Source of the DNA: Gammaproteobacteria bacterium
Lineage (GTDB): Bacteria; Pseudomonadota; Gammaproteobacteria; Enterobacterales; Permianibacteraceae
Assembly: GCA_016182845.1 (NCBI GenBank)
Contig: JACPFT010000020.1
Coordinates: 1-64,000, forward strand
DNA: 64,000 bases
Direction: 5' to 3'
Position numbers and translations under genes: made by a program. The notes below the pieces were generated by a model, which was not told the origin of the DNA, searched no databases, and saw only the letters and a program-made list of their open reading frames with translations. Positions 3-2,443 of the stretch are shown in pieces. How positions within the stretch are numbered: the first letter of the stretch is position 1; the number at the start of each line of letters is the position of its first letter.

Positions 3-119
<117 letters not shown>

Positions 120-523
120 CCGGAATAACAGTATCTACAACGCTTTTTAGAACCGCTAGCGATAAGACCCGAACAAAAAAGGCTTTACAGGCCAAACGCG
201 CCTTGCGTAGTCTCGGTGGCTCTACCCCTTTCGGCGTATACCCCCATCATGTCCCAGGCCCTGCGATACCGTCGCTCGTACCACGCCCTGCTGCAACAGC
301 AAGGCGGCGTCGGCGCGCAGGTCACTACCGAGCGATATTCCTACGCTCGATTTAGCCCGCGATTTAGCCTCGGCCGCCTTAGCGCCTGAGTCCTTCCGCC
401 GTCGCGGCCTCCCGCCGAATCCGCGTTGAAAGTCTCCAGGCCGCAAGAGCCGGCCGCCCCAATCCCGTGCTTTTCCGGTTCCGCCGCCGCGGCCGGCCCT
501 ATTCCGTCCATTACGAGGCCATC
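120..523. other. Intergenic region, IS110 flank to pheA
   Basis: About 400 bases with no convincing gene. The left part is less GC-rich, with a small A-rich run near 173-180, and may hold the right flank of the IS110-type element. The right part is C-rich. No good -35/-10 pair, hairpin with T-tract or RNA gene was seen. The pheA ribosome-binding site (acgagg, about 513-518) lies at its end. Confidence 0.4.
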
Positions 524-2443
524 ATGTCCCATGCACAAACTCCGGGCATCGCCCTGCCCGACGCTCCCGCCGAAACCACCATCCCCCTACCCGAGTTGCG
601 CACGCGCATCGACCACATCGATCGCGGCCTCCTGGAATTGCTCCGCGCCCGCCGCGACATCGCCGTCGAGGTGGCCAAGACCAAGGATGCCGAGAGCCGG
701 CCCATCCGCGACCTGGGGCGCGAGCAGGATGCCCTGGTGAAGCTGATCCAGCAGGGCAAGGAGCAGGGCCTGGACGCCCATTTCGTCGCCAAGGTGTTCC
801 GCGAGCTGATCGAGGACTCGGTGAAGCTGCAACAGGGCTATCTGCAGGCCCAGGCCAATGCCGACAGCCGCTTGCCCGAGGCCGTGCGCGTCGCCTATCA
901 GGGCGCGCCCGGCGCCTACAGCCACCAGGCCACGGAGGCCTATTTCGCCACGGACGGGGAGCGCCTGCACTGCCTGCCTCAACCCCATTTCACCGCGGTC
1001 ATCGAGGCCGTGGAGCGCGGCGAGGCGGATTACGGCGTGCTGCCCATCGAGAACACCACCTCGGGCACCATCTCCGAGGTCTATGATCTACTGCTGCACA
1101 CCCGCCTGGCCATCGTCGGCGAGGAGAAGCTGCGCATCGAGCACTGCCTGCTAGGTCTGCCCGGCGCCGGCCTGAACCAGATCCGCCAAATCTATTCCCA
1201 TCCGGTCGCGGCGGCCCAGTGCACCCGCTTCAGCTCCAGCCTGAACGGCGTGGACATCCAGTACTGGAACAACACCGCCACCGCCGCCCAGAAGATCCAC
1301 GCCGACGCCGACCCATCCCAGGCCGCCATCGCCAGCGAGGAGGCGGCGCGGCTCTACGGGCTGTCGGTCATCAAGCGCGGCATCGCCAACCAGGGCCAGA
1401 ACTACACGCGCTTCATCGTGGTGGCGCGCACGCCCATCGCCGTGGACGCGCGCATTCCCTGCAAGACCTCCCTGGTCCTGGCCACCCGCCATGTGGCCGG
1501 CGCCCTGGTGGCGGCGCTCTCGGCCCTGCGCGATCACGGCATCAACCTGACCAAGATCGAGTCCAGGCCCATCCTGGGCAATCCCTGGGAGGAGATGTTC
1601 TACCTGGATCTGGAGGGCAATCGCGACGCGCCGGCGGTGCGCGCCGCCCTGGCCGATCTGGCCCGGCACACGCGCTTCCTCAAGATCCTGGGCAGCTATC
1701 CTTCCAGCGACCTGCCCGAGCCCGTGCCCACGGGCGCGGCCCTGGAGCATGCCCAGGCGCCGGCCGTCCCGGCCGAGACGCCGCCGGCCCTCGCCACCGT
1801 GCAGCTGGGCCAGACCTTGATCGGCGCCGGCGGCTTCGTATTGGGCCTGGGCGCGGCCCAAGGCCTGTCCGAGGATGCGGCTCAGCGTCTGGCGGCCGAG
1901 GCCCAGGCCCACAACCTGGCGCTCTGGCATGATCTCGCGCGCGGTCCGGCCCAGGCGGAACAGGAGGCAAAACGCGCCGAGGGGCATGAGTTCGCCTATC
2001 TGCGACGCATCGCCAATGCCGCCGGCTTGCGCGAGCTGGCGCCGGAAGTGCGCGCCCTGGTCCTGCCGGATACGGCTTGGCGCGACACCGAGCTCCTGGA
2101 CGCCGCCGGCGCCCAGCCCCTGCCGGTCCTGCTGCCGCGCGGCGATGCCGGGCCCGGCCAGTGGTTGGAAGCCGCCGGACGCCTGCAGGCCGCCGGCAAT
2201 GCCCAGATCCTGCTGCTGGAAACCGGCCTGCGCACGGCCGACGGCCACCGTCAGCCGGATCTGGCGGCCCTGACCGCCGCCGTGCGCGCCGGCCGCCACC
2301 CGGTCCTGGTCCAGTTGCCCGGCGACAGCGATGCCCTGATGCTCCAGGCCCTCAAGGCCGGCGGCGCCAGCGGCGCCCTGCTTAGCGTCGACGAAGCCGA
2401 GGCCAGCAAGCTGCCGGCCTGGCTCGCCGCCAGCCGCGACTGA
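524..2443 (+). CDS. pheA: Bifunctional chorismate mutase / prephenate dehydratase with an extra degenerate DAHP-synthase-like C-terminal domain
   Basis: P-protein converting chorismate to prephenate and then phenylpyruvate in phenylalanine synthesis. The order is an AroQ-type chorismate mutase (about residues 20-110), prephenate dehydratase (about 118-300, with the N-Y-T-R-F motif) and an ACT domain for Phe feedback (about 312-390, with I-E-S-R-P). The start at 524 is preferred over an in-frame ATG at 467 because gagg sits a few bases upstream and the mutase begins soon after. The protein is 639 aa, whereas usual P-proteins are about 360-390. The extra 250 residues align by eye with type I-beta DAHP synthase: P-V-L-L-P-R-G (534-540) for P-V-L-L-K-R-G, and E-T-G-L-R-T (566-571) for E-R-G-I-R-T. 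The K-P-R-T-S motif is absent and D-P-S-H has become L-P-G-D-S (598-602), so this domain is probably not catalytic. Confidence 0.93.
   Translation: MSHAQTPGIALPDAPAETTIPLPELRTRIDHIDRGLLELLRARRDIAVEVAKTKDAESRPIRDLGREQDALVKLIQQGKEQGLDAHFVAKVFRELIEDSVKLQQGYLQAQANADSRLPEAVRVAYQGAPGAYSHQATEAYFATDGERLHCLPQPHFTAVIEAVERGEADYGVLPIENTTSGTISEVYDLLLHTRLAIVGEEKLRIEHCLLGLPGAGLNQIRQIYSHPVAAAQCTRFSSSLNGVDIQYWNNTATAAQKIHADADPSQAAIASEEAARLYGLSVIKRGIANQGQNYTRFIVVARTPIAVDARIPCKTSLVLATRHVAGALVAALSALRDHGINLTKIESRPILGNPWEEMFYLDLEGNRDAPAVRAALADLARHTRFLKILGSYPSSDLPEPVPTGAALEHAQAPAVPAETPPALATVQLGQTLIGAGGFVLGLGAAQGLSEDAAQRLAAEAQAHNLALWHDLARGPAQAEQEAKRAEGHEFAYLRRIANAAGLRELAPEVRALVLPDTAWRDTELLDAAGAQPLPVLLPRGDAGPGQWLEAAGRLQAAGNAQILLLETGLRTADGHRQPDLAALTAAVRAGRHPVLVQLPGDSDALMLQALKAGGASGALLSVDEAEASKLPAWLAASRD

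Follow-up and report, generated by a model that had tools for sequence, protein, structure and literature searches.

A degenerate type I-beta DAHP synthase barrel behind the ACT domain of a gammaproteobacterial PheA, probably the relic of a trifunctional enzyme

The window analysed here, a stretch of 64,000 nucleotides at the start of contig JACPFT010000020.1 of a gammaproteobacterial genome (GCA_016182845.1), harbors a pheA gene encoding a P-protein with a C-terminal DAHP-synthase-like domain (524..2443 on the plus strand, 639 aa; the ATG at 524 was assumed as the start, the open frame being listed from a GTG at 467). Three domains succeed each other on the plus strand, all of them over their Pfam cut-offs, namely the chorismate mutase domain CM_2 (596..835, residues 25-104; E 2e-19, 70.2 bits versus 27), the prephenate dehydratase domain PDT (890..1432, residues 123-303; E 3e-60, 203.5 bits versus 25.2) and an ACT domain (1493..1663, residues 324-380; E 3e-8, 33.7 bits versus 27), which we take to be the expected phenylalanine sensor. 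The whole protein reached the cut-off of the NCBIfam prephenate dehydratase model PRK11898 (230.1 versus 219 bits) and did not reach that of the bifunctional PheA equivalog PRK10622 (400.8 versus 577 bits). Beyond the three Pfam domains, about 250 residues are left over, which are divided into an ACT-barrel linker (1703..1795, residues 394-424, plus strand) of low model confidence, with pLDDT values of 55-64 where the tail model begins (its first 30 residues), and a degenerate type I-beta DAHP synthase barrel (1796..2440, approximately residues 425-639, plus strand), which was assigned by sequence, fold and residues. The four-domain order CM-PDT-ACT-DAHPS is thus present in one frame, and the coordinates and residue numbers that a sequence-only reading of this DNA had given for the tail were correct. 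Directly upstream of pheA, the window and its contig (C2) open with the end of a frame (3-116), with a presumed resemblance to the C-terminal end of an IS110-type transposase; a Pfam scan of its 38 aa returned no match.

The sequence-only reading had proposed that the extra residues form a DAHP-synthase-like barrel, and a match of the isolated tail to Pfam DAHP_synth_1 was indeed obtained (E 7e-4), but its 19.0 bits lie under the curated cut-off of 25.5. The tail also matched the NCBIfam DAHP synthase model PRK13396 (E 4e-8) and, by sequence, the PDB entry 5j6f, annotated as DAHP synthase, chorismate mutase-isozyme 3 (E 5e-6), and both searches agree in pointing to the type I-beta subclass. 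An AlphaFold2 model of the tail, for which a 53-sequence alignment of fused relatives served as input, displayed a full (beta-alpha)8 barrel with an N-terminal hairpin (pLDDT 88.5, pTM 0.82), and in VIA-align it matched 5j6f_B, the Geobacillus DAH7PS-CM, best (Z 27.0, 2.2 A over 219 residues), a top rank that this entry shares with further type I-beta DAH7PS structures. The proposed overlay on Thermotoga maritima DAH7PS likewise gave a fold match, with Z 26, and all 50 of the 50 Foldseek rows shown for the model were DAH7PS or the related KDO8P synthases, which bears out the proposed TIM-type barrel. A Shewanella tail was modelled as a barrel as well (pLDDT 90.0). The open frame of the tail is weak evidence by itself in such GC-rich DNA, where 821 of 20,000 tail sequences shuffled by mononucleotide remained open; it is the homology and fold matches that make a chance resemblance unlikely, and the fold together with the graded series of relatives described below rules it out.

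The residues of the barrel were scored in aligned columns, with the type I-beta enzyme of the same genome (L003) as reference, over a motif set including the Cys of GPC, KPRTS, KRG, DPSH, E-V-H and SDG. Only three of the 20 active-site motif positions are kept: KRG retains its Arg, and ERGIRT its Glu and its second Arg. A second alignment, covering the 10 of 14 loci that yielded a frame by the motif used, retrieved the same three. On the plus strand, P-R-G is found where K-R-G is expected (2135..2143, residues 538-540), E-T-G-L-R-T where E-R-G-I-R-T is expected (2219..2236, residues 566-571), and Q-L-P where D-P-S-H is expected (2312..2320, residues 597-599), the His column being a gap; the KPRTS loop is gone. 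The column alignment thereby confirmed the losses that had been read from the letters (KPRTS, the Lys of KRG and DPSH), and the motif description was accurate: a type I-beta barrel stripped of nearly all motif residues of its old pocket lies behind the ACT domain, and judged by its residues, it should be catalytically dead.

Full-length matches to type I-alpha, type I-beta and type II DAHP synthases were detected in the window's genome, the standalone type I-beta enzyme being L003, and the tail is therefore probably not needed for DAHP. The type II match (G000:C16:246402-247703) sits in a 1044-aa open frame, longer than the 457-520 aa measured in six further genomes that have a match; the extra length may reflect either another fusion or GC-rich DNA that happens to stay open. 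The presence of L003 bears on a further suggestion of the sequence-only reading, in which the dead barrel would dock the real DAHP synthase. In a fuller form of this idea, the barrel would join the type I-beta enzyme of the genome as a pseudo-subunit and pass phenylalanine or prephenate signals to it. Complexes between chorismate mutase and DAHP synthase are known in other bacteria (PMC10520331; PMC4281200). Docking is accordingly possible in the window's genome, but it cannot be a general role, since 22 of the 27 genomes with dead tails, including every examined genome of g7 (Shewanella) and of f10, are devoid of a standalone type I-beta match above 77 bits; those with one are G000, G031, G246, G319 and G372 (residues were scored for 25 of the 27, G260 and G385 being called dead from weak matches and genus). 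Each of nine dead-tail genomes that were checked has between one and three further DAHP synthase frames of type I-alpha size, with a type I-beta frame in addition in G031, so that eight of the genomes without a standalone type I-beta match hold other DAHP synthases. We regard docking as very improbable.

The fusion is by no means restricted to the window. Of 394 genomes sampled from the order, at least 72 carry it, spread over nine families (f1, f6, f8, f10, f11, f13, f15, f20 and f25), with Shewanella, Ferrimonas, Motilimonas, Oceanimonas, Zobellella and Oceanisphaera as named genera; a profile built from 13 fused proteins listed 69 genomes with a frame of more than 600 aa matched into the tail, to which G001, G002 and G319, ranking below the rows listed, were added. 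In the loci seen from Aeromonas, Vibrio, Photobacterium and E. coli, PheA is without a fused barrel; a hand-made list of near-duplicates was left aside in part of this comparison. In a 323-genome sample of the class, no match was found in other gammaproteobacterial orders at E 1e-100, a threshold at which fused proteins of another body type could be hidden, and the PheA frames listed from these orders span 281 to 473 aa, with one exception of 789 aa (G451). Outside Gammaproteobacteria, and among the best 80 matches of the scan, fused loci occurred at least in loci labelled Ignavibacteriota, Bacteroidota, Acidobacteriota, Myxococcota and Planctomycetota. In the phylum to which G724 belongs (and which includes Stygiobacter electus), 19 of 247 genomes have full-length fused matches; in that of the planctomycete G726 the count is 11 of 246, and G720 is a further case, with a degenerate tail.

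Related architectures were also observed in these phyla. In G760, G852, G844 and G738, PheA is nonfused, with frames of some 390-405 aa that are 57-64% identical to the Stygiobacter trifunctional protein, which would suggest separate losses of the barrel outside Gammaproteobacteria. A reversed-order fusion, L270, lies in the planctomycete genome G1161 (3-1601, minus strand), where the DAHP synthase barrel comes first (127-375) and prephenate dehydratase follows from 406, cut by the end of the stretch. In the planctomycete standalone DAHP synthases L272 and L273 (G1021 and G1109), the match to the trifunctional protein begins near residue 356, before the barrel, and they possibly carry a related ACT-like front domain.

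Fused tails differ widely in what remains of their active sites. Among 91 distinct tails, taken from frames above 600 aa with one kept per set identical over the last 150 residues, 31 retain all 20 motif columns, and the other 60 have lost sites in differing combinations. Fusions with all 20 sites were found in G001 and G002, which represent a sister genus within the window's own family, in G076 (f15), and in G292 and G328 (f8), and 26 of 27 fused loci from outside Gammaproteobacteria, spread over five phyla, also keep every column; the fused barrels of L036 and L081 (Stygiobacter electus) exceed the Pfam DAHP_synth_1 cut-off with 261.5 and 277.2 bits. Of the tails with losses, those of f20 keep KRG, ERGIRT and the His of DPTH and have lost KPRTS, and most f10 rows keep KPRSS and have lost the KRG lysine and DPSH. 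Degenerate fused tails also occur in two planctomycetes, L072 (genome G720) and L257 (genome G990), whose site losses are probably independent; at the KRG lysine, L257 has Glu, as in Shewanella, and L072 has Thr.

The Lys of KRG and the Asp of DPSH supply the charges expected for PEP and metal. In the Shewanella and f10 rows the old pocket has been switched in a common manner, with the KRG lysine turned to Glu in 13 of 13 and 4 of 4 rows, a Gly to Asn in 12 of 13 and 3 of 4, and the Asp of DPSH to Asn in 12 of 13 and 4 of 4, respectively. Shared switches of Lys and Asp in 13 Shewanella and four f10 rows, along with the two Arg and one Glu kept in the window, are what might be expected if the barrel sensed metabolites, as the sequence-only reading had also suggested, with a remodelled pocket still able to bind PEP, erythrose 4-phosphate or some other ligand from the pathway. 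However, the switch is not general, in that G388 and Ferrimonas, which belong to the same family as Shewanella (f6), are without the full set and the window differs too, and the Lys to Glu and Asp to Asn replacements would remove the very charges on which such binding should rely; a sensor is thus considered distinctly unlikely.

The descent of the barrel was addressed with two unrooted trees. The first, restricted to barrels of at least 120 bits, separates 25 standalone type I-beta rows from 50 fused rows on a 100/100 branch, the standalone rows coming from two phyla only (20 from the order and five from Ignavibacteriota genomes). The wider tree was drawn from 61 hand-picked loci less two duplicates and comprises 59 rows, 29 tagged as fused and 30 standalone, planctomycetes included, 20 of the loci being new and drawn from two further groups of genomes. 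The separation of fused from standalone rows largely persists in it, with L256, a full trifunctional planctomycete protein, grouping among standalone rows and the standalone L266 among fused rows. An AU test of the fused rows as one group, including the reversed-order fusion L270, did not reject it (p 0.173). These trees make one main fused lineage likely, and a strictly single fusion is neither rejected nor established. The window tail was too divergent for the trees of standalone versus fused barrels and was placed unreliably in another barrel tree, where its branch is extreme (7.7), so that its origin rests on shared architecture. A recent copy of the genome's own L003 is not favoured as its source; L003 groups with the standalone type I-beta enzymes of the order, away from the order's fused barrels.

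A tree of the PheA body was built from 86 hand-picked loci and rooted with 29 sequences of other gammaproteobacterial orders. Enteric-type PheA and the sampled trifunctional proteins form an ingroup with 100/100 support, which splits into a cross-phylum clade containing the window and a clade of the order, whose earliest branches are the fused f8 and sister genus and within which the nonfused E. coli, Vibrio, Aeromonas and f9 are nested. Reconstruction at the base of the 57-row ingroup gave nine changes for a fused against 11 for a nonfused ancestor by parsimony, a result that ties once a loss costs three times a gain, and a two-state model gave a likelihood ratio of 13.7 for a fused ancestor, with a fitted gain rate above that of loss (0.35 versus 0.16); 28 of the 83 inner branches of the tree are weak and open. 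A fused ancestor, with the PheA of E. coli, Vibrio and Aeromonas as truncated forms, is moderately favoured by these reconstructions. No convincing DAHP synthase relic was detected beside pheA in 40 nonfused loci, the best candidate being L114 (E 0.17) at a contig end. The position of the window gene itself, outside the order clade (99/85), would also suit horizontal transfer from a planctomycete-like donor, which is suggested by a body 55% identical to that of L204 (the locus with the L091 gene) versus 42-47% to 12 fused proteins of the order; against this, the order as one clade was not rejected by the AU test (p 0.378).

Selection on the dead tails was estimated from median dN/dS values (Nei-Gojobori, NG86), using only pairs with dS of 0.1 to 1.8 in both parts of the protein. 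The medians for the PheA part and the tail were 0.014 and 0.064 in Shewanella (six pairs), 0.003 and 0.020 in f10 (eight pairs), 0.028 and 0.078 in Motilimonas (one pair), and 0.149 and 0.40 in Oceanimonas, Zobellella and Oceanisphaera (21 pairs). Some lineages therefore constrain the dead barrel, and in others it is relaxed; in all four groups the body is the more constrained part, and in Shewanella and f10 the barrel is under purifying selection. In the window, the tail is rich in alanine (22% versus 14% in the body) and raised in GC at codon position 2 (0.541 versus 0.445), and this composition and the long branch point to weak constraint, with the fold probably kept according to the confident model.

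These data weigh on the pseudogene reading (PMC1173090), according to which the tail has no function and is a remnant in the course of being lost, tolerated as harmless to PheA. The alanine-rich window tail, with its lost KPRTS loop and very long branch, is what such a remnant should look like; the relaxed tails of the Oceanimonas group (dN/dS 0.40) imply that some dead tails may be dispensable, and close relatives of fused species lack the tail altogether, such as Aeromonas beside Oceanimonas. On the other hand, the tail dN/dS stayed below 1 in 36 of 36 usable pairs, with a maximum of 0.62 and very low values in Shewanella and f10, and the tails of both the window and Shewanella give confident barrel models; the purifying selection in Shewanella makes a pseudogene fit that genus poorly. 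As a general account the remnant is rated unlikely, if with appreciable weight, and for the window itself simple decay is a serious rival.

The account that we prefer, and hold as a whole to be rather probable, combines the computed homology, predicted fold, motif loss, all-motif versions and purifying selection in Shewanella and f10, and considers the window PheA as a decayed trifunctional enzyme whose dead barrel has a structural or allosteric role. Its ancestor would have been one chain made up of chorismate mutase, prephenate dehydratase, a phenylalanine-binding ACT domain and a functional type I-beta DAHP synthase, in which a single ACT domain might have gated the first committed step and the last phenylalanine-specific steps together. 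Regulatory domains directly precede the barrel in other type I-beta enzymes, and since the ACT domain occupies the same place here, phenylalanine gating of DAHP synthesis would be the natural reading of the intact protein, which was presumably active. DAHP synthase chemistry would then have been lost in cells holding other DAHP synthases, the barrel remaining folded and being kept by several lineages as a non-catalytic domain. The window tail would descend from a version with all motifs, and in its lineage the barrel is probably still folded, under weaker constraint. The dead barrel most likely serves the ACT domain as its structural or allosteric partner, and would set the quaternary state and the phenylalanine response of the mutase-dehydratase. 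The broader proposal, that a trifunctional enzyme was ancestral to the enteric P-proteins, that E. coli PheA is a truncated form and that the dead barrel of Shewanella and its relatives is a selected pseudoenzyme tuning phenylalanine control, is put forward tentatively, as quite possible rather than probable.

One protein family thereby presents a series that runs from an all-motif fusion of the first and last steps through partly damaged copies and a conserved dead domain to loss, and the retention of a dead enzyme domain for allostery becomes testable in it. Relatives with a seemingly working copy suggest that the two ends of the pathway were at one time joined in a single protein, an arrangement that the ancestor of the E. 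coli enzyme may have shared, so that the textbook PheA may have lost a DAHP synthase. For the Shewanella fusion, which was called of unknown origin in 2005 (PMC1173090), the series offers an origin.

Among known systems, E. coli PheA has a CM-PDT-ACT body like that of the window (46% identical) and stops at CYPSENVVPVDPT, where the fused proteins run on into the linker and barrel. The CM-DAH7PS enzymes of Geobacillus and Listeria (5j6f, 3nvt and 3tfc), the best sequence and fold matches to the window tail, join a type I-beta barrel to chorismate mutase; they are active enzymes with neither PDT nor ACT. Thermotoga maritima DAH7PS (1rzm and 1vr6), matched in fold as given above, carries its own N-terminal regulatory domain before the type I-beta barrel, as the ACT domain stands here, and is monofunctional and active. 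The closest precedent is found in Shewanella oneidensis, where aroQ-pheA was described by Song et al. in 2005 as carrying a fused aroAI-beta pseudogene "of unknown origin" (PMC1173090). The sequence-only reading, which knew of no described protein with this order, is overtaken here, as the order was already in print; beyond that paper, searches of the open-licence literature yielded no further description of the architecture, and subscription papers may have more. The S. oneidensis AroQ-PheA fusion shares the domain order and DAHP synthase subclass with the window and, called a pseudogene, is dead as well, whereas the Shewanella rows examined here, which exclude S. oneidensis itself, belong to a different lineage and have lost different residues. 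In its passages on the fusion, the 2005 account gives no origin, intact version or selection test, and to these passages the present analysis adds a likely origin, the range of the fusion and evidence of selection.
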